Source: Modestobacter altitudinis (GTDB lineage: Bacteria > Actinomycetota > Actinomycetes > Mycobacteriales > Geodermatophilaceae). Taken from it: a stretch of DNA of 64,000 nt. The notes beneath the pieces were generated by a model, which saw nothing but the letters and a program-made list of their open reading frames with translations, searched no databases and was not told the DNA's origin. Location of the stretch: assembly GCF_005930475.1 (NCBI RefSeq), contig NZ_SJEW01000015.1, positions 1-64,000 on the forward strand. Direction: 5' to 3'. Of the stretch, positions 45,069 to 58,897 are shown piece after piece (the stretch's first letter is position 1; every line of letters starts with the position of its first letter). The translations under genes and the position numbers were made by a program.

Positions 45069-46349
45069 ATGGGCACCCAGGCATCCACCCCGGCACGGAC
45101 CGGCAACCGGCTGGCACGTTCGGTCGCCACGGTCGTCGTGTCGCTCGCCCTGGGCGTCGGAGTCGCTCCCGCTACCGCCACTGCGGCCCCGACCGACCCC
45201 AGCGACACCCAGCTGAGCCAGGCGCAGCAGGCCAAGGCCGACGCCGCCGAGCAGGTCGGCGCACTGTCCGCCGCCCTCGCCGCCGCCCAGACCCAGGTGG
45301 ACGACGCCCGGGCGCAGTCCGCCATCGCACTGGACGCCTTCCAGGGCGTGCAGGCCGAGTACGAGGCCGCGCAGACCGCCGCCGACGATGCCGCCACCGC
45401 TGCCCAGCGCGCCCGGGACGACCTGGCCGCCGCCCGTGCCGACCTCGCCGACTTCGCCCGGCAGAGCTACCTGCAGGGCAGCACCTCACCCACGCTCGAG
45501 GCGCTGATGACCGCCGAGGGGCCCACGCAGATCGTCGAGCGGGCCGCCCTGCTGGAGGCCGCGGGGGCGCACCAGGGCAGCGTCGTCGTCCAGGTGACCG
45601 CCGCCGAGCAGCAGGCGACCGCCGCCGACCTCGCCGCGCAGACCGCGCTGGCCCGGGCGGCCACGCTCGAGCAGCAGGCCGCCGACGCGCTGGCTGCCGC
45701 CGAGGCGCTCGAGGTGACTGCGCGGCAGCAGGCCGCGGGACTGGCGAGCCGGCAGGCCGCCGTGCAGCAGCAGCTCGAGCAGGCCCAGCAGACCCTGCTC
45801 GGCCTGGAGGGCGCCCGTGCCGCTGCCGACCAGTACGCCGCCCAGCAGACCGCCGCCGCGGCCCGCGCGGCCGCCGACCAGCGGTCGGCCAGCCATGCCG
45901 TGTCCGCCGGCGCCGTCACCACCGCCGGAGCCGGCTCGTCCGCCGCGGCCGAGACCGCGATCTCCGCGGCCCGCCGGTGGCTGGGCACGATCTACGCCTG
46001 GGGCGGGGGCTCGCTCACCGGCCCGAGCGTGGGCTGGGGCATCGACGCCGGCATCGTCGGCTTCGACTGCTCGGGCCTGACCCGCTACGCCTACGCCCAG
46101 GCCGGCGTCAGCATCCCGCGCAACAGCAGTGCGCAGTACTCAGCGCTGCCGAGGGTCTCCCGCAGCGACCTGCAGCGGGGTGACCTGGTCTTCTGGGCCA
46201 CCGACACGAGCAGCCCCGCGACGATCCACCACGTCGCCCTCTACCTGGGCGACGGGCAGATCCTGGAGGCACCGGAGAGCGGGTCCCGGGTCCGGGTCAC
46301 CGCGATGCGGTGGGGCGGCTTCATCGGCGGAGCCCGCCCCAGCGCCTAG
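45069..46349 (+). CDS. secreted NlpC/P60 peptidoglycan hydrolase with coiled coil
   Basis: 426-residue exported endopeptidase. The signal peptide ends near residue 40 (ATATAA). Residues about 50-290 are an Ala/Gln-rich coiled coil of the RipA/PcsB type. Residues about 310-426 are the NlpC/P60 domain with Cys334 ([12 protein letters not shown]) and His388 ([10 protein letters not shown]). It should cleave D-Glu-DAP bonds in the wall during division, and the coiled coil is usually an autoinhibitory or FtsEX-binding part. The stop overlaps the convergent gene's stop in CTAG. Confidence 0.9.
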
Positions 46350-47323
46350 GCGAGGGCCTCGGCGGTGAGGGTGACCGAGCGCAGCCGGCCCTCCGTCGTC
46401 GGGGACTGGTGGGCGACGATCAGCTCGTCGGCGTCGGCCTGCTTGCGGAAGCCCTCCAGGTACTCGCCCACGTCGTGCGGCGTGCCCACCGCGGCGTGGG
46501 TGAACATCGAGCTGACGTGGTGGCCGGCGCCCTGCTCGAGGAGCAGGTCGGCCTCCTCGTCGGTGAAGGAGCGTCCCCGGCCGAAGAGCCCGACGGCCAT
46601 GGTCCGCCGCACCGCCTGCAAGTTCTCCTCCGCCTGGCTGCGGCTGTCGGCGGCGATGACGTTGACCCCGGCGATCACGTACGGGGCCTCGAGCTCGGCG
46701 GAGGGCTGGAACTCCCGCCGGTAGGTGGCCACGGCGGCCTCCAGCGCCTGCGGGGCGAAGTGGCTGGCGAAGGCGTAGGGCAGCCCGAGCGCCGCGGCGA
46801 GGTGCGCGCCGAACAGCGACGAGCCGAGCACGTACAGCGGGACACGCGACCCCTTGCCGGGGATGGCGTCGACCCCGGGCACCCGGGTCTGCCCGGCCAG
46901 GTAGGCCTGCAGCTCCAGCACGTCCTGCGGGAAGGTGTCGGCCGAGTTCGGGTCGCGGCGCAGCGCGTACATCGTGTTCTGGTCCGAGCCGGGCGCGCGG
47001 CCCAGCCCCAGGTCGATCCGCCCGGGGTACATCGCCTCGAGCGTGCCGAACTGCTCGGCGATGGTCAGCGGCGAGTGGTTGGGCAGCATGACCCCGCCGG
47101 CCCCGAGCCGGATCGACGACGTCCGGGCGCCCACGTGCGCGATGAGCACGCTGGTCGCCGACGAGGCGATCGTCGGCATGTTGTGGTGCTCGGCGTACCA
47201 GACACGGCGGTAGCCGTGCTCCTCCGCGCGCTGGGCGAGCGCGACGCTGGCGGCGATGCTGCTGCTGACGGTCTCCCCGCGGGCGATCGGCGCGAGGTCG
47301 AGGACGGACAGCGGGATGCGCAT
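46346..47323 (-). CDS. LLM class flavin-dependent oxidoreductase
   Basis: 325-residue luciferase-like monooxygenase of the single-subunit MsnO8-like group: [15 protein letters not shown] at the N-terminus, [33 protein letters not shown] and a late [13 protein letters not shown]. It uses FMN or F420, and the AEHHN variant is more usual for FMN enzymes. The substrate is unknown. ATG 47323 is set by the conserved [10 protein letters not shown] start. Confidence 0.87.
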
Positions 47324-47520
47324 GGGATGCCTTCCGGTCGGTTGTCCGGACCAACGCGGAGGGCGCCGCTCCCCTTCCCCACCGCCGGGTGGGGCACGTC
47401 TCCACGCGCACCCCGTGACGGTGGTGCCGTTCGGGTCCGCCCCTTCCGGAACCCCCGCCGCACGTGTCACGCTGGGGGATCCACCGTGGACGCAACGCCT
47501 TCTCCTCGGGAGCAGCCGTG

Positions 47521-47931
47521 GTGTTGACCCGGAGCACGTACGCACCGGACTACGTCGAGCAGCGGCGGGCCGCCGTCGACGCGCAACTGGACGCCTACCG
47601 GAGGCTGGTGAGCGAGGCCGACTGCGCCCCGGACGCCCTGTACGACTTCGAGCCGGTCTTCTTCAACAACATGGTCATCGCCTTGGAGCACAGCTTCGTG
47701 CACCGCGGCCGGGGCCTGGAGGAGGGCGACGGGACGGCCCTGGACGAGGTGCGGCTGATCAGCGAGTCGCTGCACCGCGGCAACACGGTGATCACCGACC
47801 GGCAGATCCGGCTGGACCCGGACCGGACGGTGCTGAAGTACCGGCACGGTGATGAGATCGCGGTCCGCGAGGCCGACTTCGTCGCCCTGTGCAAGGCCTT
47901 CTTCGCCGAGCTGGAGAGCAGCTACCTGTAA
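47521..47931 (+). CDS. hypothetical protein
   Basis: 136-residue acidic protein without membrane segments. I do not recognise a family. Features include a helix-rich start ([20 protein letters not shown]) and a central [20 protein letters not shown], then [23 protein letters not shown] 47521 has GGGAGC 7-12 bases upstream, and GTG 47518 is an alternative. Codon use is strongly biased as in neighbouring real genes. It overlaps the 3' end of the convergent GH16-like gene by 10 bp. Confidence 0.7.
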
Positions 47932-48686
47932 CCCCGGATGACGTCCACGACCAGCTCGGGGACGACGTAGCGCTCCCCCGGCACCGCGCGCTCCGGGAAG
48001 TCGAAGACCGCCAGCATGGACTGCATCGGGTAGTCCGGGGTGACCGCCACCGAGCGCACCGGCTCCCCGTCGACGGAGAAGACGGCGCCGTCGGGCCGCC
48101 AGTCGACCGCGTAGGTGTGGAAGTCGGCGACGTCGACGGCCAGCCGCGGGGCGGCGAAGTCCTCGACCGACCGCGGGTCCCGGAACGGGTGCGCACCCAT
48201 CCCCACGGCGGCGCTGGGCCGACCGTCGTCCCCGACCCGGACCGCGTCCCCGAAGACCTCGGCCACGCACAGCTCCGCGGAGCGCTCGGGTCGGTCCTCG
48301 AACCCGACCAGCCACCAGGCCGCCATCGACCGGGCGGTCAGGGTCATCCGCGCCCGCATCTCCAGCCGGCCGAACGTCGGCGTCCATCCCGCCAGCGCCG
48401 GCTGCTCCTCCCGGACGACCGCGCCCGGTCGCACCGGCTGCTGGCCGACCGTGCTGCCGACCGGGCCGGAGAACACCCCGGACTGGACGCAGGAGACCCG
48501 CAGCGGCGGGTGGTCGTCGGGACACCAGAGCGGGTGCTCGGCGGGCAGGAACAGCCGGAGGCAGGAGTCACGCACCTCGTAGGCAGCCGCGGTGGCCGCG
48601 CGCGAGGTCCACTGCGGGAGGTAGTGCGGCACCCAGACAGCGGTGTCGAGGCCCGGTCCGTCGAAGTCGTCGGCAAACGTCGGCAC
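47922..48686 (-). CDS. GH16-like beta-glucanase family protein
   Basis: 254-residue jelly-roll protein of the glycoside hydrolase family 16 superfamily. The start [20 protein letters not shown] and the middle [16 protein letters not shown] fit a frequent actinobacterial subgroup. The catalytic strand reads [11 protein letters not shown]: both glutamates of the ExDxxE motif are present but the central Asp is Cys. No signal peptide is visible from GTG 48686, so cytoplasmic localisation or an unconventional role is possible. It is divergent from the retron locus. Confidence 0.78.
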
Positions 48687-48770
48687 GGTCGGCCATCCTG
48701 GAGCCGCGGCCTCCGGCGGGGAAGAGCTCCGGGCGCGCGCCGTTCCGGCCCGGTCCCGTCCGTCGGTCAC

Positions 48771-48776
48771 TACGGT
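48771..48776 (+). promoter_or_regulatory. possible -10 box of the retron RNA
   Basis: TACGGT matches the TANNNT -10 pattern and is placed so that transcription would begin about 7 bases downstream, at or near 48783, exactly where the left arm of the 15-bp inverted repeat begins. No -35 box is evident. Supportive but short. Confidence 0.35.
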
Positions 48777-48782
48777 GTGCCC

Positions 48783-48943
48783 GTGCGCGACGGGGAGGGC
48801 AGGACGACCGGCACGAGCCGGTCCCCCCGGGGCAACCCCGGGGACTCGTGAGAAGCCCAGGCACGGCGTCATGAGCCGGACGGCGCGCTCCGCGCACGCA
48901 GCGGCGCATCGCCCAGGGACAGGCTGGTCTCCCCGTCGCGCAC
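48783..48943 (+). ncRNA. putative retron msr-msd RNA with a1/a2 inverted repeats
   Basis: A 161-nt segment directly before the reverse transcriptase gene, bounded by a perfect 15-bp inverted repeat: GTGCGCGACGGGGAG at 48783-48797 and its complement at 48929-48943. This is the a1/a2 arrangement of retron RNAs. Inside are a 7-bp hairpin (48806-48812 with 48817-48823), an 8-bp hairpin (48825-48832 with 48836-48843) and a 7-bp hairpin with one G-U (48845-48851 with 48869-48875), followed by a GC-rich foldable stretch to 48928 that may be the msd. The branching guanosine and the msr/msd boundary cannot be assigned. Confidence 0.6.
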
Positions 48944-48956
48944 CTTCCCGGCCGGC

Positions 48957-50306
48957 GTGACCGCCGAACGGCACGCCGCCGTCACCGCCTCGGGGATCGC
49001 CACCGCACTGCTGGCCGGACCGTGGCGTCGGCGGGACATGGTGCGGCGGGTGGCGGTGGCGCTCGGTCAGGCCCGCGCCGCGACCTGGGTGGGCACGATG
49101 GTCGGCGAGGTGCAGACCGGCTACCCGCAGGCGCCGGTCGACCGGCCGCGGGAGCTGGCCCGCTTCCTGCGGACGACGCACGGTTGGGCCCGCGGGCAGG
49201 ACGCGACGCCGCCACCCCGCGTGCTGCGCTGGGAACCGCGGCCGACGGAGCTCGCCTGGTCGCGCTCCCCGGTCGCCGACCTGCCCGACCAGGCCGCGGT
49301 CGCCCGGCTGCTGGACGTCGACGCCGGCGAGCTGGCCTGGTTCGCCGACGCCCGCGGGCTGGAGCGCACCGCAGGTGAGCCGCTCCGGCACTACCGGTGG
49401 CACGTCGTCCCGCGCCCGCACGGCGTCCGGCTGCTGGCCGCCCCCAAGCCACGGTTGAAGGAGGCGCAACGGCGGCTGCTGCGGCACGTGCTCACCCGGG
49501 TGCCGGTGCACGACGCGGCGCACGGATGCGTGCCGGGCCGGTCGGTGCGCACCGCGGTCGCCCCGCACGCCGGGTCCCCGGTCGTGCTGCGGATGGACCT
49601 GGAGGCGTTCTTCGCCTCGGTCGCGGCCGCGCGGGTGCACGGGCTGCTCCTCGGCCCGGCCGGGCTGCCAGAGCCGGTCGCGCACCTGCTCACCTCGCTG
49701 GCGACGACGGTGGTGCCCGCGCAGGTGTGGCGGCAGGTCCCCCTGCCGACCGGCGTCGAGGCCCGGGAGCGGCACCGCCGGCTGGGCCGGCAGCTGGCCG
49801 TCCCGCACCTGCCGCAGGGGGCGCCGACGTCCCCGGCGCTGGCGAACCTGGTGTGCTTCCGGCTGGACCGGCGGCTCGCCGGGCTGGCCGCCTCGTGCGG
49901 GGCCCGGTACACCCGCTACGTCGACGACCTGACCTTCAGCGGGGGCACGGCGGTCGGCCGGGACCGCTTCGCCGACCTGGTGGCCCGGGTCGTCACCGAC
50001 GAGGGCTTCCGGGTGAACGCCGCCAAGACGGCGGCGACCAGTGCCGCGCGCCGGCAGTCGGTGCTGGGCGCGGTCGTCAACACCCGGCCCACGCTGTCGC
50101 GCCGGGAACGCGACGCGCTGCGGGCGCTGCTGCACAACTGCGCCACCTCCGGCTGGGCCGGCCAGACCCGCGGCCGCGAGCCCGCCACCTTCCGCGACCA
50201 CGTGCTCGGCCGGGTGGCGTGGGCGGCGTCGCTCGACCCGGCCTTCGGCGCCCGGCTGCACGCCCTCGCCGAGCGGATCGACTGGTCGCACGGGCCGGCC
50301 GGCTAG
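48957..50306 (+). CDS. retron-type reverse transcriptase
   Basis: 449-residue RNA-directed DNA polymerase. RT blocks in order: KPRLKEAQRRLL (165-176), VHDAAHGCVPGRSVRT (184-199), RMDLEAFFASV (212-222, Asp214), LPQGAPTSP (285-293), RYTRYVDDLTFS (317-328, Asp323/324), EGFRVNAAKT (349-358), VLGAVVN (369-375, in place of the retron VTGxxVN) and LRALLHN near 388. The block order and the HYRW, AHG and LPQGAPTSP signatures match myxobacterial Mx162-type retron RTs, which also carry an N-terminal extension. About 110 N-terminal residues are unassigned. GTG 48957 lies 13 bp after the a2 repeat. Confidence 0.88.
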   Translation: MTAERHAAVTASGIATALLAGPWRRRDMVRRVAVALGQARAATWVGTMVGEVQTGYPQAPVDRPRELARFLRTTHGWARGQDATPPPRVLRWEPRPTELAWSRSPVADLPDQAAVARLLDVDAGELAWFADARGLERTAGEPLRHYRWHVVPRPHGVRLLAAPKPRLKEAQRRLLRHVLTRVPVHDAAHGCVPGRSVRTAVAPHAGSPVVLRMDLEAFFASVAAARVHGLLLGPAGLPEPVAHLLTSLATTVVPAQVWRQVPLPTGVEARERHRRLGRQLAVPHLPQGAPTSPALANLVCFRLDRRLAGLAASCGARYTRYVDDLTFSGGTAVGRDRFADLVARVVTDEGFRVNAAKTAATSAARRQSVLGAVVNTRPTLSRRERDALRALLHNCATSGWAGQTRGREPATFRDHVLGRVAWAASLDPAFGARLHALAERIDWSHGPAG

Positions 50307-50908
50307 CGGCTCTGCAGCGCGTCCAGCGCGACGGCCATCGAGGCCGCGACGCGGAAGTCCAGCCGCGGGTCGGGCACGGTCACGGTGTACCGGTCGCGGA
50401 CCGCCTTCTGCCGCTCGCTGACCAGCACCGGCCGGCCGGTGGCGGTGTCGGTGAAGTCGAAGTGGAAGACGAAGGGCACCCAGACGTCACCGACGTAGGG
50501 CAGCAGGTCCCAGACCCGGCGCAGGACGGCGACCGACATGCGGCGCTCCTGCCCGACCGCCTCCAGCCCCGGCACCGACAGGTTCCAGGTCGAGCGCAGC
50601 AGGCTGGCGCCGAACTGCTTGCTGAAGCTGCCCAGCGGCACGCCGTTCTCGTCGAGGACGTCGTGCTCGGCGTGCACGTCCAGCCGCTGCCGGGCCTTGA
50701 AGGAGAACACCCGACGGGTCCGGGACTCGTCGGAGAAGAACTCGACCTCCTCCTTGAGCTTCATCCGCTTCTGCTCGGCGAAGGCCAGCAGCTGACCCTC
50801 GCCGCCGTCCGGGCCCACCGCCCGGACCTCGTACCGGTTGACCATGACCGTGATCCGCTGCTTGATCAGGAAGGCCGGGACGACCATCGGGGCGGACGGA
50901 CCTGTCAC
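50303..50908 (-). CDS. LURP-one-related (scramblase-like) protein
   Basis: 201-residue protein of the LURP-one/Tubby-C-like beta-barrel family: FLIKQRITVMVNRYEVRAVG, then LLAFAEQKRMKLKEEVEFFSD, and VFSFKARQRLDVHAEHDVLDENG. Eukaryotic and bacterial members are thought to bind membranes or lipids, with no firm activity. GTG 50908 follows AGGAGCAGCC. It converges on the reverse transcriptase gene with overlapping stops (CTAG). It is a common actinobacterial chromosomal gene and is not an evident retron effector. Confidence 0.78.
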   Translation of the reverse strand: MTGPSAPMVVPAFLIKQRITVMVNRYEVRAVGPDGGEGQLLAFAEQKRMKLKEEVEFFSDESRTRRVFSFKARQRLDVHAEHDVLDENGVPLGSFSKQFGASLLRSTWNLSVPGLEAVGQERRMSVAVLRRVWDLLPYVGDVWVPFVFHFDFTDTATGRPVLVSERQKAVRDRYTVTVPDPRLDFRVAASMAVALDALQSR

Positions 50909-50969
50909 GGCTGCTCCTGGGGCTGGGTGGACGTGCGGGAGCCCATCCTGGCGCATCCTCCGCTGTGCG

Positions 50970-51704
50970 CTACCGGGAGCGGTCCACGTCGAAGGAGAGC
51001 TCGGTCATCGGCACCTGCCGGTCGACCAGCCTGGCGGAGAGGTCGTCCAGCGTGGTCCCGGTGGCGTACGCGTGGGCCCGCAGCACGGCGAGCGCGTCGG
51101 GGCTCGCCAGCCGGAGGGCTGCGTTCACCATGCCGATCGCCTGCCACACGGTGGCCCGTCGTCCGGCTGCCGGGGCGTCCAACCAGGCCGGCCCGTCGGC
51201 GTGTCCACGGTCCCGCTCGTTCACGACCGCGAAGGCCGCCGCGACCTCGTGGGTGACCGCCACGGCGTCGGCCAGGGACAGCGCACCGGGGTCCCGGGGC
51301 GGCACGAGGTAGAGGTCGAGGGCGCCGATGTCGCGCAGGTCGTCCTCCAGCGGGAGCGAGAGGGTGGCCCGGATCGGGGTGGTGCTCGCCAGGCAGTCGT
51401 AGAAGGCCGGCCACCGGGACCGGATGGTCGCCTCGTCGGCCATGAGCGGGCGGCCCTCGGCGTGCGCAGCGAGGCAGGGGCCCTCCCCGACGGTGAACTG
51501 CAGGCGCTCGGCCTCGGCCGACACCGCATCGCTGGCCCCCAGCGGCAGCCGCCGGTCGTCGGCGAAGAAGAGGCTGATGCCGGCCCCGTCGACGGGCAGC
51601 GCCCGGGCGCAGGCCCGGGCGAGCCGTTCGGGGAGCAGTTCGGGGCCGGGCATCTGCGCCGAGGAGGCGGCCAGTGCGGTGCGGAACTGCTCGATCAGGG
51701 TCAC
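50970..51704 (-). CDS. GAF-ANTAR RNA-binding antiterminator-type regulator
   Basis: 244-residue regulator. Residues about 25-165 form a GAF sensor (LQFTVGEGPCLAAHAEGRPL, SLPLEDDLRDIGALDLYL). Residues about 175-235 form an ANTAR domain (VWQAIGMVNAALRLASPDAL, then LRAHAYATGTTLDDLSARLV). ANTAR domains bind dual hairpins in mRNA and prevent termination. GAF-ANTAR proteins are numerous in actinobacteria. Targets are unknown. GTG 51704 is the apparent start. Confidence 0.87.
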   Translation of the reverse strand: MTLIEQFRTALAASSAQMPGPELLPERLARACARALPVDGAGISLFFADDRRLPLGASDAVSAEAERLQFTVGEGPCLAAHAEGRPLMADEATIRSRWPAFYDCLASTTPIRATLSLPLEDDLRDIGALDLYLVPPRDPGALSLADAVAVTHEVAAAFAVVNERDRGHADGPAWLDAPAAGRRATVWQAIGMVNAALRLASPDALAVLRAHAYATGTTLDDLSARLVDRQVPMTELSFDVDRSR

Positions 51705-51817
51705 GCGGCTCCCGCCGGCCGGAGCCGTCCTGAGGACAGCGCGCAGCGCCGGCTCCGCTCGCCGGCTCCTGGGGACTGCCCGCTCGCCCGGCCGGGAAAC
51801 CCCCGGGCGCAGCAGGT

Positions 51818-51957
51818 CGGTCCACCAACTGGTCCAGCAGGGCGAACGTGCGCCGGGCCATCAGGTCGGCACCCAGGGCCCGGACCGCCCGGACGCGCGC
51901 TCGCGCGCCGAGGTCGGCGCGCCGCCCGGCGTCCGTCAGCAGCACCGCGAGCGCGCC
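51818..51957 (-). pseudogene. glycosyltransferase C-terminal remnant
   Basis: On the minus strand about 46 codons read like the end of a family 4 glycosyltransferase: LAVLLTDAGRRADLGARARV, then ALGADLMARRTFALLDQLV. There is no start and no catalytic part. The upstream side is cut off exactly where a fragment of an unrelated GGDEF gene begins on the other strand. Confidence 0.5.
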
Positions 51958-52180
51958 GGCCGCAGTCGCCGAGCGGCTGCGGCATGCTGTCGCCGCCGAC
52001 CTCGCGGACGGGCTCTCGGTGACCATCTCGGCGGGGGTGGCCTCCGCTCGGGGCGCGCAGGTGGAGCTGGGGGACCTGACCTGCCGGGCGGACCACGCGC
52101 TGTACGCCGCGAAGGCCGCCGGTCGCAACCAGGTCAGCTGCGACGAGGACGCCACGGCGGCCTCCCGACCCGTGCGCTGA
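51955..52180 (+). pseudogene. GGDEF (diguanylate cyclase) C-terminal remnant
   Basis: About 75 codons on the plus strand encode the last third of a GGDEF domain: AVAERLRHAVAADLADGLSV, TISAGVASARG and CRADHALYAAKAAGRNQV, then a stop at 52180. The GG(D/E)EF motif and everything before it are missing. Upstream sequence belongs to another gene fragment, so this is the scar of a deletion or rearrangement. Confidence 0.75.
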
Positions 52181-52315
52181 GCTCGCGAGCTCCGCGTCAT
52201 CGGTGGGTCCCAGAGGTCGCGGCTGCTCGTCGACCGCTCCCGGACGCCGGCGACCCCCCCGGACCGCGGAGAGTCGCCGGGGCGTCCAGGTGGTCACCAC
52301 GCCGACCCGCTGGTC

Positions 52316-53305
52316 TCACGTGCGGAGCGGGCTCGCAGCTCGGTCACGCCGGGCGGCCTCGCCGGCGGAGGGCCCCGGGTCGCCCGACGGGAGCGGGATC
52401 TCCGTCGTCAGCGGCAGTGGTGCACCGAAGTCGGGACGCCCGTCGGCGTGCCAGGCCAGACGCTGCGCCCGCGCCGTCCGGCCTTCGTAGGTGTACTCAT
52501 CGGTGCTCTTGGCGTGGTAGACGAACCAGTCCTCGGTTCCGTCCGGGGAGGTGAAGAAGCCGCTGTGGCCGGGACCGAACACCCCATGGTCGGCTCGGCT
52601 TCGGAAGACCGGCTCCGGGTGCTGGTGCCAGGAGCTCGCATCCAGCAGGTCATCGGTCTCATCAGCGCTGAGCATGCCCATGCAGTAGTCGGGTGTACCG
52701 GTGTCGCAGGCCGAGTACACGAGGAACACCCTGCCGTTCCGCCGGATGCAGACGGGCCCCTCCCGGATGTCCGGGCAGCCGAACCCGCTCGCGGGCAGCT
52801 GTACGCGGTCACCGACCAGCTGCCAGGGGCTGGCCATGCGGGAGAGGTAGAGCACGTGCCCTGGCATGCCCGCCCAGACCAGGTAGAGCGCACCGGAGGG
52901 GAGCAGGAGCGGGCTCCCGTCTATCGCGTAGTGCTCATCGGCGGGATCGGTGTTCAGACGCGCCTTGTAGCGGAAGGGACCGCACGGGTCGTCACCGGTG
53001 CTCTCCAGGACGTGCATGCGGTGATGGAGGTGGTCGGAGGCATCCGACGCGGTGTAGTAGAGGTACCAGCGTCGACCGTCGGGACCGTCGAGCAGGTGCA
53101 GCTCCGGTGCCCACAGCATCGCGCACCGGTCTGGCTCGGTGTCGCTCCAGACGACCTGCGCCGGCGTGTCCGCCAGGTCGGCGATGCTCGAAGCCCTCGT
53201 GACCACGATGTGGTCGTGGGAGGTGCCGGTCGAGTAGTAGTGGCCGTCGTGGTGGACCAGCCAGGGATCGGGGTGCTGACTGATCGGGTTGAGGAACGTC
53301 GTCAC
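52316..53305 (-). CDS. glycoside hydrolase family 43-like protein
   Basis: 329-residue five-bladed beta-propeller glycosidase. GH43 catalytic residues appear in order: base Asp in SQHPDPWLVHHDGHYY, modulating Asp in HYAIDGSPLL, and acid Glu in IREGPVCIRRNG. RSRADHGVFGPGHSGFF is typical. Alpha-L-arabinofuranosidase or beta-xylosidase action on plant polysaccharide is likely. No signal peptide is visible, so it may act on imported oligosaccharides. The start is GTG 53305. Confidence 0.85.
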   Translation of the reverse strand: MTTFLNPISQHPDPWLVHHDGHYYSTGTSHDHIVVTRASSIADLADTPAQVVWSDTEPDRCAMLWAPELHLLDGPDGRRWYLYYTASDASDHLHHRMHVLESTGDDPCGPFRYKARLNTDPADEHYAIDGSPLLLPSGALYLVWAGMPGHVLYLSRMASPWQLVGDRVQLPASGFGCPDIREGPVCIRRNGRVFLVYSACDTGTPDYCMGMLSADETDDLLDASSWHQHPEPVFRSRADHGVFGPGHSGFFTSPDGTEDWFVYHAKSTDEYTYEGRTARAQRLAWHADGRPDFGAPLPLTTEIPLPSGDPGPSAGEAARRDRAASPLRT

Positions 53306-55189: not shown

Positions 55190-55455
55190 CGTCGCCCCGT
55201 CCGCTGGTGTCGAACGCCATCACCGCCCGCCGCCTCATCGAACTGGTCGGGCCCAATGCGGTCATCACGTACCTGGCGCCCGAGCCGACCGAAGCAGTGG
55301 TGGCGCTCGGTGCCGCGTGCGGACTGGCCGCCGCAAACGGGGCGCTGATCAGCAGGTTTCTGCCACGTCAGACGTTGAAGCGGAACTCCACCACGTCGCC
55401 GTCGGCCATGACGAGCCTGCCCGGAGTTCACAGTGCAACTGGACCACGCCCGTAG
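55187..55455 (+). CDS. hypothetical protein running into the left attachment repeat
   Basis: Open frame starting with GTG 55187 in overlap with the previous stop. The first 58 residues have coding-like character (VSNAITARRLIELVGPNAVI, then ALGAACGLAAANGALISRF) but no family I recognise. From 55362 it reads through the 52-bp attachment repeat antisense to the ychF end and into the integrase start. In the uninterrupted chromosome the frame would stop just after the repeat (acg-tag at the right copy). The reality of this gene is uncertain. Confidence 0.35.
55362..55413. repeat. attL: left 52-bp direct repeat of integrated element
   Basis: Identical over 52 bp to 63811-63862. The sequence is the 3' end of ychF (minus-strand [14 protein letters not shown] and stop) plus 5 bases beyond the stop. 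Flanks differ on both sides. It lies 20 bp before the integrase gene. It marks the left end of an about 8.4-kb integrated element. Confidence 0.93.
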
Positions 55456-56188
55456 CTGCCTTGACGTAGCTCAGGAGCGCCTGTCAATGCGCCCCATCAA
55501 GGAGACCACCCACAAGGAATACCTAGCCACCCTGCGGAACCTGGACCTGGCCGACGTTCCGTTTGATTCCGTCACGGTAGCAATGCTCAACACGAGGTTG
55601 CAGCGTGTCTTGAGCCCCAACACCCGGCGGAAACATGCAATCAACCTCCGGGCTTGCCTGGGCCTTCCCATTCCTTGCCCACGTGCCCAGCGAACCGAAT
55701 ACGACCTTCCTCCCTTGGAGCAGTTAAGGGGGGCGGTAGAGGGCAGCTCGTATCGCCTGTGGGGCTACGCCATGTTGTTGGCTGGCCTCCGCCTGGGTGA
55801 GGTTTGCACCAATCAACCAATCAAGGGGAACGTCATCACGGTTGACCGGCAACGTTTGCCGGACGGCACAATCAGCACGCCAAAGACTGGCGGTCCCGTG
55901 ATTGTTCCGGAGTGGTACGCCGAGGAATACCGCAACCACGACTTCACCAAGGCCGCCAACACGGTTTACATCGGGATTCGCCGGGCAGGCAAGAAGGCAG
56001 GTCTTGGTAATTCGTTGACGCCTAAGGTTCTCCGTCATGCGTTCGCTACAAACTTGGTGAACGCCGGTTGCTCGCCCGAGGTACTGCGTCGCCAGATGCG
56101 GCACCATGATGTGAGCGTTTCTCTAAGGTTCTATGTTCAGACCACACAGGCGGACGTTGAGGAAGCCATAATCCGCGCCTTCGGTTAG
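55433..56188 (+). CDS. int: tyrosine recombinase (integrase)
   Basis: 251-residue integrase, short because the arm-binding N-terminal domain is missing. Residues about 15-80 are a SAM-like core-binding domain. The catalytic domain has Arg120 (AGLRLGE), Lys151 (TPKTGG), LRHAF with Arg201, His224 in MRHHD and nucleophile Tyr234 (LRFYVQ). The first His of the HxxR box is Lys198, a tolerated variant. It sits 20 bp inside attL, as usual for site-specific integrases, and probably catalyses integration at ychF. The start is GTG 55433. Confidence 0.9.
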   Translation: MQLDHARSCLDVAQERLSMRPIKETTHKEYLATLRNLDLADVPFDSVTVAMLNTRLQRVLSPNTRRKHAINLRACLGLPIPCPRAQRTEYDLPPLEQLRGAVEGSSYRLWGYAMLLAGLRLGEVCTNQPIKGNVITVDRQRLPDGTISTPKTGGPVIVPEWYAEEYRNHDFTKAANTVYIGIRRAGKKAGLGNSLTPKVLRHAFATNLVNAGCSPEVLRRQMRHHDVSVSLRFYVQTTQADVEEAIIRAFG

Positions 56189-56519: not shown

Positions 56520-57149
56520 TCACAGATCATCAATCGGTGTCTCGACTAGCACCTGCAAGCTAGCAGACAGCTTCTGCGGGTCTAACTGGTCATAGTCAAT
56601 AGAGGCACCTTCGGCGATGTACCTACGCAACTCCACGACAGCGTTATGGCTGAGCGATAGAACTTGAAAGGCCATGTCATGCGTCGCCTTTTCATCCGTG
56701 TAGTCGTTAGCCCCCAGGTTCAGGCTTTGACGCATATATGCAATGGACAACCGAAAGCAGAACTTCTTGATTTCGGTGTCGCCGATGAGGGTCTGGTAGT
56801 CAGCCAGCCGTCTACTGTGCGACAGCAGAGCCTCTCTCACGTTGCCTTTGAGCACCTCACCCACACGCTCTGACATATCGTCACGATGGGCAATTACGGC
56901 CTTCAATAGGTCGTTCTGGTAGGTAATCTGTACCTTTGTGCCTTCGTCAACGCGGTCATGCCACCGCTTGAGGAAGTACAAGGTCACGGCCACTGCCGCG
57001 CTTCCCGACGTGCTGAGCGTAGCGATATAGACCTTTTGCGCGAAGTCGCTCCAGATGGTTCCGGTCGCCAGAAGGATTGCTGCCAGCAGGCACAACCCGC
57101 AGATGACGAAGCAGACGGACGACCAACGCCGCATGGTTCTGGGCTTCAT
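56520..57149 (-). CDS. two-TM membrane protein with cytoplasmic domain
   Basis: 209-residue protein with two N-terminal membrane helices (about 8-30, rich in Cys/Leu, and about 38-56) and a soluble helical domain of about 150 residues (VDEGTKVQITYQNDLLKAVI, SHSRRLADYQTLIGDTEIKK). The family is not recognised. Two helices plus a cytoplasmic helical part recall SLATT-type or other membrane effectors of defence islands, but no motif proves it. The ATG 57149 start is chosen. Longer starts up to 57266 exist and none has a good ribosome-binding site. It is the only element gene on the minus strand. Confidence 0.65.
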   Translation of the reverse strand: MKPRTMRRWSSVCFVICGLCLLAAILLATGTIWSDFAQKVYIATLSTSGSAAVAVTLYFLKRWHDRVDEGTKVQITYQNDLLKAVIAHRDDMSERVGEVLKGNVREALLSHSRRLADYQTLIGDTEIKKFCFRLSIAYMRQSLNLGANDYTDEKATHDMAFQVLSLSHNAVVELRRYIAEGASIDYDQLDPQKLSASLQVLVETPIDDL

Positions 57150-57499
57150 GCCAGTCACGGTAGCTGTGGACCCGGCCTGACACTCGTTAGCCGACTTGAC
57201 GTCGCGAGTCTCCCTCGGGACTGGCCGGCAACGCTCTAAGCGCTCGCCTGGGAGCATGCTGACCAACGTACGTCAGTGTGGTCCGGATGCTCATGGGCTT
57301 TTGGTGAGTCTTTTCGTTTTCCGCGCCTGAGCTTTGGTCGTTTTCACGCTTTCAACGGGAGTTTCGTCAGCATCTTCCCCTATTGGTCTAACTACCTTCG
57401 GGTGCAGTCCGGCCGTTGACCTGGATTGGCCCGACTATTGTCGCAATTGGGTCGAATCATGCCTTGAATTTGCCAGAGGTGAGAGTTTACGGTGGCGCT

Positions 57500-57784
57500 A
57501 TGAGCTGGACCGAAGACTGGACGCCGACACCGTATGCCGTCACGTGGGACGAGGCGGAGGGCATTTACAGGATCGCGCCAGACGGCGCAATCGCACTGCC
57601 CATAGAAGAGGGCGGCAATGAGTTGCTGACCAGATTGCACGGCATCAGTAGCGGGCGGCTAGTTGTGGCTGTTGCTGACTACATGGCTATGGCGGACGAA
57701 GGTGACGGCATATTCCGGCTTAGCAATCACCAATTGCGACAGATGGTGAAGGTCCAGCGGGCGAACCATGACCTGGAGTTCTGA
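57500..57784 (+). CDS. hypothetical protein of the element
   Basis: 94-residue acidic protein (SWTEDWTPTPYAVTWDEAEG, then VVAVADYMAMADEGDGIFRL). No recognisable domain. It lies 24 bp upstream of the primase gene in the same direction, so a role in replication or its control is possible. The ATG at 57500 has a weak GGTGG upstream. A longer start at 57416 exists. Confidence 0.6.
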   Translation: MSWTEDWTPTPYAVTWDEAEGIYRIAPDGAIALPIEEGGNELLTRLHGISSGRLVVAVADYMAMADEGDGIFRLSNHQLRQMVKVQRANHDLEF

Positions 57785-57808
57785 TACAGCATCTACCCGA
57801 GGACTGAC

Positions 57809-58897
57809 ATGAACATTGAAGTCGCCACTCGAAGCTGCTTCGGTGACGAGCTGGGGAACCACCTGCTGGCCAACCGCGCGATTCTGCCGCTCAGGGACAA
57901 GAGGCCAGCGGCAGGCATTCGTAACCACAACGCTGGAGTGGACCTCAGTAAGTCGTTTGGACCACACAATGGGCTAGCCATCATCAACGGGGAGTTGTCG
58001 GGAATCGTTACCGTTGACCTGGACAGTGCCGATTTGCATCCACCCGCACCTATCAATGTGGAGACTGCGAAGGGAGGGCACATCTACCTGCCATGGGCCG
58101 GCCAGGTGAGGGCACTTGCTGTGGTTCCCAAGGTCGACGTGTTGGGCGCTGGCGGTTACTCGGAGTTCGTCGGACCTGGGAAGCGGTTCTTGCGCCCGGA
58201 TTTTGCCGACACGGACACCGTGTCCAACTGGTTGGCTTCTCTGTCCCCCTCTTATGTGAAGGGAGTCTTGCTAGGTAGTGGTTCTAGGGAGTATGGCAAG
58301 AGGGTAAGTCCAGATAGTGTTTCCAGAGAGTGTATGTACCCTGAGAAGTTGAGAGCTCTTGGATACAGGCTTCGTGTCGATACAATTAGCAAAACCTATG
58401 CCTCACAGATGCGGTCGGCTGCTGTGGGAACCCGCAACAATCTATGTTTTCGGTACGCCTTGGAAGTCCTCCGCTGTGGAGCGGACTTGGAAGCGTTCAC
58501 AGAGGCAGCGGTTGACAGCGGCCTGACACCGGACGAGGTTCACCGAACGATTCGACAGGCAGAGGCTTCGATCGAGTTGGATTACCGGCCAGAGATTGAA
58601 GTCTTCGAACGCGTCCAGGGGTGGCTGGCGGCGCACGCTGGCATGAAGGGAATCACGCTTGACCTTGCGCAATGCTTGGCCTTCGAGGCCATCGAGTGCA
58701 ACACGACTCGGCCGCAGTTGAGTCAAGTACGCGCCGCCATGGATGTAGGTAGCGATGCTCCATACGTGGGGCGCGTCCTGAAGATTATGGCCGATAAGCA
58801 TAGGGCCGTGAGAGTTCACGTGCCGAAGGGGCGGCAGGCGAACGGCCTGAGCCACTGCAACAACTACGAATTGACGATCGAAGGCGTGACTATCTGA
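57809..58897 (+). CDS. bifunctional primase-polymerase (prim-pol) domain protein
   Basis: 362-residue archaeo-eukaryotic-type primase. The catalytic DxD is Asp70/Asp72 in GIVTVDLDSADL. The conserved His91 is in ETAKGGHIYLPW, and KVDVLGAGGYSEFVGPGK provides the third motif. The C-terminal 200 residues have a helical region resembling the primase C-terminal part, but there is no helicase domain. It suggests autonomous replication or primer synthesis by the element, as in satellite or plasmid-like integrative elements. Confidence 0.82.
   Translation: MNIEVATRSCFGDELGNHLLANRAILPLRDKRPAAGIRNHNAGVDLSKSFGPHNGLAIINGELSGIVTVDLDSADLHPPAPINVETAKGGHIYLPWAGQVRALAVVPKVDVLGAGGYSEFVGPGKRFLRPDFADTDTVSNWLASLSPSYVKGVLLGSGSREYGKRVSPDSVSRECMYPEKLRALGYRLRVDTISKTYASQMRSAAVGTRNNLCFRYALEVLRCGADLEAFTEAAVDSGLTPDEVHRTIRQAEASIELDYRPEIEVFERVQGWLAAHAGMKGITLDLAQCLAFEAIECNTTRPQLSQVRAAMDVGSDAPYVGRVLKIMADKHRAVRVHVPKGRQANGLSHCNNYELTIEGVTI

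Follow-up and report, generated by a model that had tools for sequence, protein, structure and literature searches.

Positions 48783 to 50306, plus strand, of the 64,000-nucleotide (nt) stretch of Modestobacter altitudinis DNA that was analysed (the window) very probably hold a retron, that is, a non-coding RNA together with a reverse transcriptase (RT) that would make a branched RNA-DNA molecule (multicopy single-stranded DNA, msDNA). The layout of the locus, the co-occurrence of the RNA with the RT, the covariation within the RNA and the clade of the RT all lead to this reading, which rests on comparison of sequences. It is also the reading of the original prediction, and it is supported by the conserved RNA found upstream of the relatives of the RT. 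The retron is probably working, and its sequence is best read as that of an effector-less variant of retrons that is actinobacterial and mostly vertically inherited. The RNA, its parts and the RT are placed as follows.

48783 to 48943, plus strand: retron non-coding RNA (msr-msd), 161 nt, recognised by its fold, covariation, model matches and co-occurrence with the RT
48783 to 48802, plus strand: a1, left arm of the terminal stem, perfect from 48783 to 48797, with an inner CAG at 48800 to 48802
48924 to 48943, plus strand: a2, right arm of the terminal stem, with its perfect part at 48929 to 48943
48806 to 48823, plus strand: msr hairpin A, 6 pairs, 100% of alignment cells paired
48825 to 48843, plus strand: msr hairpin B, CCCCGGGG-CAA-CCCCGGGG, 98.3% of cells paired
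48875 to 48905, plus strand: msd hairpin C, GCC...GCGCTCCGCGC...GGC, two helices, 97.4% and 99.3% of cells paired
48957 to 50306, plus strand: retron RT, 449 amino acids, GTG start, assigned from PADLOC and from its best-matching solved structures, which are retron RTs

The RNA is bounded by a perfect 15-bp inverted repeat, GTGCGCGACGGGGAG, at 48783 to 48797 and 48929 to 48943 on the plus strand, which encloses 161 nt. Between the right arm and the GTG start of the RT at 48957 there are 13 bp, and the coordinates given for this arrangement in the original prediction are confirmed. When the arms are extended inward to 48802 and 48924, 18 of 20 bases are complementary. The 161-nt RNA folds with -103.5 kcal/mol (z = -5.08), a value equalled by none of 200 shuffles. 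Could such a repeat arise by chance in GC-rich DNA? The GC content is 77%, and a score of at least 12 is reached in 114 of 1000 shuffles of such regions. However, the inverted-repeat search of 390 nt around the RT start gave a top score of 16, which beats all 40 dinucleotide shuffles (12 at most), and the repeat is conserved, covaries and occurs together with the RT. The probability of a chance repeat is vanishingly small.

Alignment and model searches of the regions upstream of related RTs found both the inverted repeat and the structured RNA to be conserved. Upstream of the RT, where the stem is expected, 28 of the 32 loci compared (30 from Geodermatophilaceae and 2 from Nocardioides) have an exact run of at least 9 pairs. 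In the other four (L006, L026, L027 and L046) the terminal stem folds and is broken by one mismatch. The two arms change between loci in a matched way, as in the GACGGGGAG and GGCGGGGCGG arms. Alignment A2 contains 29 Geodermatophilaceae loci; L017 was dropped because an insertion displaced the alignment, and L029 because the RT start is missing. L017 still has a 16-bp repeat. The 29 loci align over the terminal stem and the three hairpins, and the consensus has 41 pairs, 18 in the terminal stem, 6 in hairpin A, 8 in hairpin B and 4 plus 5 in hairpin C. The three internal hairpins are thus part of the consensus. A fourth, before a2, appears in single folds and is variable among the relatives.

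In A2, 98.2% of 1187 cells are paired. Changes on both sides of a pair occur in 37 cells compared with 13.5 +/- 2.6 in shuffles, none of 500 being as high, and structures slid along the alignment give 1 to 5; since the aligned sequences are related, the shuffle counts are not probabilities. Such changes occur in 5 of the 18 pairs of the terminal stem, and one pair of hairpin C has 9 both-sided cells. Hairpin B is the best conserved sequence within the RNA family, and CTCCGGGGNNNCCCCGGGG or a near variant is present in divergent loci. The RNA and the RT also occur together. Among 23 Modestobacter genomes both are present in 16 and both are missing in 7, of which two are more than 90% complete. 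The source genome has a single RT match at E<=0.001 and a single RNA match at E<=0.01.

Split RTs were observed in several genomes. In G100 (locus L046) and G104 the RT is in two pieces, while the RNA in front of it still scores 157.8 and 101.3 bits, so perhaps the RT decays first in these two. G043, G048 and G063 also have split RTs.

A similar RNA was recognised in part of a more divergent set of relatives, with RTs that are 42-51% identical. This set has 24 loci, four from other Geodermatophilaceae genera, two from Nocardioides, and the families f45, f2 and f34. For L052 and L112, in which the N-terminal part of the RT cannot be aligned, upstream of the RT means upstream of the alignable part. 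Model R1, built from the 29 loci of A2, has a match upstream of the RT in 10 of the 24 at E<=0.01 and in 17 at E<=1; these E-values are rough, and two matches at E<=1, in L102 and L110, were not counted because their strand is not that of the RT. In 20 of the 24 loci the best repeat has a span of 150-190 nt, compared with 25.5% of 960 shuffles (binomial P 5e-9, which is optimistic because related loci are treated as independent). Twenty divergent loci have a common plan: a stem ending in GAG[ACG], hairpin A, hairpin B, a longer hairpin and a2. Their hairpin B is strongly conserved, mostly as TCCGGGG-NNN-CCCCGGGG. Alignment A6 joins 28 RNAs, 8 of the 29 near loci and 20 of the 24 divergent ones; L052, L102, L105 and L112, with no repeat of the expected span or an unclear RT start, were left out. 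A6 was kept out of the covariation analysis because its ends are not reliably aligned, as was alignment A3, which was fitted to the model.

Two further features lie at the left end of the RNA.

48771 to 48776, plus strand: -10 promoter element TACGGT (TANNNT), 6 nt before a1, with a predicted RNA start at about 48783
48802, plus strand: predicted priming (branch) guanosine, in CAGG at the inner end of a1, placed by the rule in PMC6868368

With an accepted distance of 3-10 nt before a1, a TANNNT element was found in 34 of 40 loci, namely in all 29 near ones and in 5 of the 11 divergent ones, and it ends 4-7 nt before a1. The same test made at other positions of eight loci succeeds in a fraction of 0.00086. 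The sequence CAGGACG is invariant in all 29 rows of A2, and all 20 of the aligned divergent rows have GAG[ACG] at the corresponding position. The excerpted text of PMC6868368 puts the priming G within the a1 part of the stem or directly after it, in the context TAGC or a variant such as CAGC (Mx162), GAGC (Mx65) or CAGA (Ec67). CAGG and GAG[ACG] are found at the place where known retrons prime, and thus, by analogy, G48802 is the predicted branch point.

These features also bear on whether the repeat and hairpins are a cis-regulatory leader, either an attenuator or an element for autoregulation of the RT, and no template for it. An RNA directly upstream of the RT on the same strand is what such a leader would look like. 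However, the terminal stem closes about 160 nt and leaves the RT start outside, a promoter-like element is located at a1, there is no run of T after a2, and the layout, the RT clade and the conserved G match those of retrons. A regulatory leader is very unlikely.

The RT itself has two features that need to be placed.

49917 to 49928, plus strand: catalytic box YVDD of the RT, within 48957 to 50306
48957 to 49376, plus strand: N-terminal extension of the RT, residues 1 to about 140, helical (AlphaFold, residues 1-147, mean predicted local distance difference test score (pLDDT) 75, predicted template modelling score 0.61)

The Pfam domain RVT_1 matches residues 156-372 (E=1.4e-15). The best PADLOC models are RT_other (E 1.1e-162) and RT_outgroup (1e-153), the latter described as retron; both match near full length and the next model, RT_XIII, has an E-value of 1.6e-83. 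The best-matching solved structure is the Ec86 RT (E 9e-39), followed by other retron RTs, and the matches to retron RTs are far better than those to Drt2 and Drt3a. The top NCBIfam match is the retron St85 RT family with 156 bits; the cut-off is 235, so the RT is not a member of that family. Judged from these matches, the RT belongs to the retron clade. The open reading frame (ORF) at 48957-50306 is real, on the Pfam match and the substitution rates, and is under purifying selection. The ratio of non-synonymous to synonymous substitution rates (dN/dS) is 0.21, 0.31, 0.31 and 0.40 against four copies from the same family (L031, L033, L036 and L040) and 0.68 against Nocardioides L044, at high divergence (dS 0.74). 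The N-terminal extension is seen from the Pfam domain, which starts only at residue 156 of 449, and from the PADLOC retron RT models, most of which begin at 107-156 or later. AlphaFold did poorly on the RT as a whole (14 sequences, mean pLDDT 54.7), and the structure search was therefore made with the N-terminal part, for which Foldseek found no match in the PDB at E<=0.001.

A number of observations weigh against the retron reading. In A2 the number of pairs with a both-sided change is 7 compared with 5.0 in shuffles (21 of 500 as high) and the number of pair types is 23 compared with 21.0 (26 of 500 as high), and both differences are weak. A search of 46000-52500 with the Rfam covariance models at E<=5 gave three matches, none in the RNA and none relevant. 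Among the divergent loci, 7 of 24 have no match to R1 at the expected place even at E<=1. In that search the antisense strand also gives matches where the RNA lies or overlapping it, with E 0.012-0.45, so that hits above E 0.01, of which there are seven, count little alone. The repeat exceeds all 40 shuffles in only 7 of the 24 loci, and shuffles are as high as the repeat in 15 of 40 for L048, 20 of 40 for L108 and 18 of 40 for L110. The promoter-like element is missing from 6 of the 11 divergent loci. The retron models of NCBIfam, although the best, match the RT only under their curated cut-offs. Three signature motifs of the RT are altered: NAXXH in region X reads VAPH in an alignment with Ec86, with the A and H kept and the N lost; VTG in region Y reads VLG, or LGG in two Nocardioides rows; and YADD, which is present in two Nocardioides rows, is replaced by YVDD. 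Neither a linked effector gene nor a recognised effector domain, as expected of tripartite defence retrons, was found among the neighbours called within 5 kb or in the N-terminal part of the RT.

The altered residues would also fit an RT-associated RNA of another kind, in which DNA synthesis is protein-primed or otherwise primed, as in some defence-associated RT (DRT) systems, and no 2'-5' branched msDNA is made. CAGG, moreover, is not among the priming contexts named in the excerpted text of PMC6868368. However, the RT is far closer to retron RTs than to Drt2 and Drt3a, and the pairing of a1 and a2 up to a conserved G is the layout of a retron. According to PMC4244168, 47% of retron-lineage RTs have VTG and 59% have NAXXH, so these motifs are typical and not defining. 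We give this alternative a small probability.

If the unit is a retron, it would work as follows. The promoter at 48771-48776 would start the RNA at the left repeat, a1, and a1 and a2 would pair into a long terminal stem that presents the guanosine predicted at 48802. The RT would bind the msr hairpins at 48806-48843, prime from the 2'-OH of G48802 and copy the region before a2 back towards the msr. The product would be a branched RNA-DNA (msDNA) with a DNA part of up to about 80 nt, from the template

48844 to 48923, plus strand: predicted msd (template), from the msr hairpins to the inner end of a2, for up to about 80 nt of msDNA

We infer the 2'-5' priming, the branch position, the msDNA length and the processing by analogy with other retrons.

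The original prediction had named a candidate undescribed retron with an RT of Mx162-type signatures, and both points need qualifying. The RT clade is not unknown, since PADLOC models match the RT near full length and one of them is described as retron. These models, RT_other and RT_outgroup, presumably go back to the Mestre et al. 2020 classification, and they cover the protein only. The RNA has no Rfam match, and no description of it or of retrons in these genera is among the titles and abstracts listed, subscription literature being mostly outside the search. The experimentally validated retron RTs compared in the 2019 review are from Gamma- and Deltaproteobacteria only, and actinobacterial retrons are 'putative' in its excerpted text (PMC6868368).

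As for the Mx162 type, the likeness lies in the N-terminally extended RT and in a comparable priming context, but the RNA is shorter. The myxobacterial retrons Mx162 (Mxa1), Sa163, Ne144 and Mx65 likewise have an N-terminally extended RT and paired msr/msd ends, as described in the same excerpts (PMC6868368). Their priming G is in CAGC in Mx162 and Sa163 and in GAGC in Mx65; here it is in CAGG, and in GAG[ACG] in the relatives. The Mx162 transcript is 241 nt and its DNA 162 nt, compared with 161 nt and a predicted 80 nt or so here (PMC6868368). The Modestobacter retron may belong to the Mx162 type, its likeness being to the published description of Mx162. Retron-Eco1 (Ec86) and the other tripartite defence retrons share the RT core and the RNA plan with the present unit; unlike it, they have a dedicated effector gene or domain, and the signature residues differ. 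The RT of retron type XIII, the third-ranked PADLOC model, is a much weaker match, and no neighbour gene is shared among the lineages of the present unit.

The retron RT varies in its presence. An RT match at E<=1e-20 is present in 50 of the 112 Geodermatophilaceae genomes and missing from the other 62; by our reading of the table, 34 of the 50 hold one stretch of at least 400 residues and 16 only fragments or split copies. Seven of 396 genomes drawn from the phylum, the source genome included, match at E<=1e-30, and 15 of 78 genomes of family f45 match at E<=1e-40. A tree of 49 RTs places the Geodermatophilaceae genera in separate clades, apart from one exception. Since the tree mostly follows the genera, it suggests that inheritance is mostly vertical, with frequent loss and changing neighbourhoods. 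This would resemble Mx162 and Sa163, which cluster in related species and are probably vertically inherited, according to the excerpts of PMC6868368. The exception is G091 (locus L021), which is placed in the source genus (g1) and whose RT groups with genus g3, through either horizontal transfer or misplacement of the genome. More distant second RTs occur in genomes that also carry the retron RT, at G064:C5:445623-446519 (37% identical) and G080:C12:17916-18842 (33%). Close relatives on viral contigs were sought as well; the 14 loci found are all only 21-31% identical and none is close.

Against L036, L056 (another genus), L060 and more distant Modestobacter loci, homology begins on the left at 48768-48771, and against L039 at 48754, at or a few bases before the -10 element. 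On the right it ends with the RT (50285-50288) in L056, L060 and loci with the next gene elsewhere. The homologous unit between genera consists only of the promoter, the RNA and the RT, about 1.52 kb. In the source clade this unit lies left of the 50303-50956 gene, and in L035-L039 and L046 it lies right of the same gene, a shift due to either transposition or gene rearrangement. Two genomes without the retron keep flanking genes.

Genes were called within about 5-7 kb of the RT and clustered under 13 genus labels, of which Nocardioides possibly coincides with another. The RT family is present under all 13, and with this crude gene calling no other neighbour family within 5 kb is found under more than 2. 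The gene caller took the wrong strand over the RT in the source locus, L032, L056 and L067, so small or unusual partners could be missed. Pfam identified ten neighbours of the relatives as a permease, a nitrite/sulfite reductase domain protein, a VanW-like protein, a phosphodiester glycosidase, a major facilitator superfamily transporter, a DUF1905 protein, two methyltransferases, a luciferase-like protein and one without a match. PADLOC was run on eight of these ten and on two neighbours in the source window; its mad2 model matches the two methyltransferases (E of about 1e-18), and the remaining eight have no match. It is possible that a partner is encoded in trans. In both Nocardioides loci the RT is closely followed by a small shared ORF on the same strand (L044 6353-6598 and L045 6319-6597), and its 81-amino-acid product in L044 has no Pfam or PADLOC match. 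This ORF is possibly a lineage-specific partner.

What does such a retron do for its host? One sub-case of the retron reading is a degenerate or selfish element that makes msDNA, has no host function and is often lost. The fragmented or split copies in 16 of 50 genomes, the 62 of 112 family genomes that have none, the missing linked effector and a dN/dS of 0.40 at about 71% identity are in keeping with it. Against it stand the purifying selection between close copies (dN/dS 0.21), the compensatory changes, an RT tree that mostly follows the genera and the retention of the RNA by 16 of the 18 good Modestobacter genomes. This sub-case is improbable, though less so than the alternatives to a retron considered above. 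The most likely role, a guess with about even chances, is defence-like sensing in which the effector would be either the N-terminal helical domain of the RT or a host protein encoded elsewhere. A more tentative proposal, which we consider somewhat doubtful, is an Actinomycetota retron lineage with its own RNA family and no dedicated effector. The particle of msDNA and RT would then do the work itself, by way of the RT's N-terminal helical domain or of a conserved host protein, and it might serve for something other than toxin-based phage defence.

The myxobacterial retrons named above are not known to have an effector. That a unit persists in several genera with no effector linked to it is relevant to the role of such retrons in the host, also of the myxobacterial ones. 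The lineage offers a defined RNA, a promoter-like element, a predicted priming site and hosts for work on msDNA in Actinomycetota. The compact RT-RNA pair might also serve genome editing in high-GC bacteria, from which it comes.

Other genes of the window were noted. A GH16-like gene at 47922-48692 on the minus strand (Pfam E 4.3e-08) separates the retron from the 47464-47931 gene; L033 and L034 have no GH16-like gene there, and their retron homology begins about 22 bp after the homologue of the 47464-47931 gene. About 5 kb beyond the retron, at 55433-56188, a 251-amino-acid ORF has a Phage_integrase (tyrosine recombinase) domain (E 8.4e-10). It is followed by three ORFs at 56520-58897 without a Pfam match, with which it possibly forms an integrated element.
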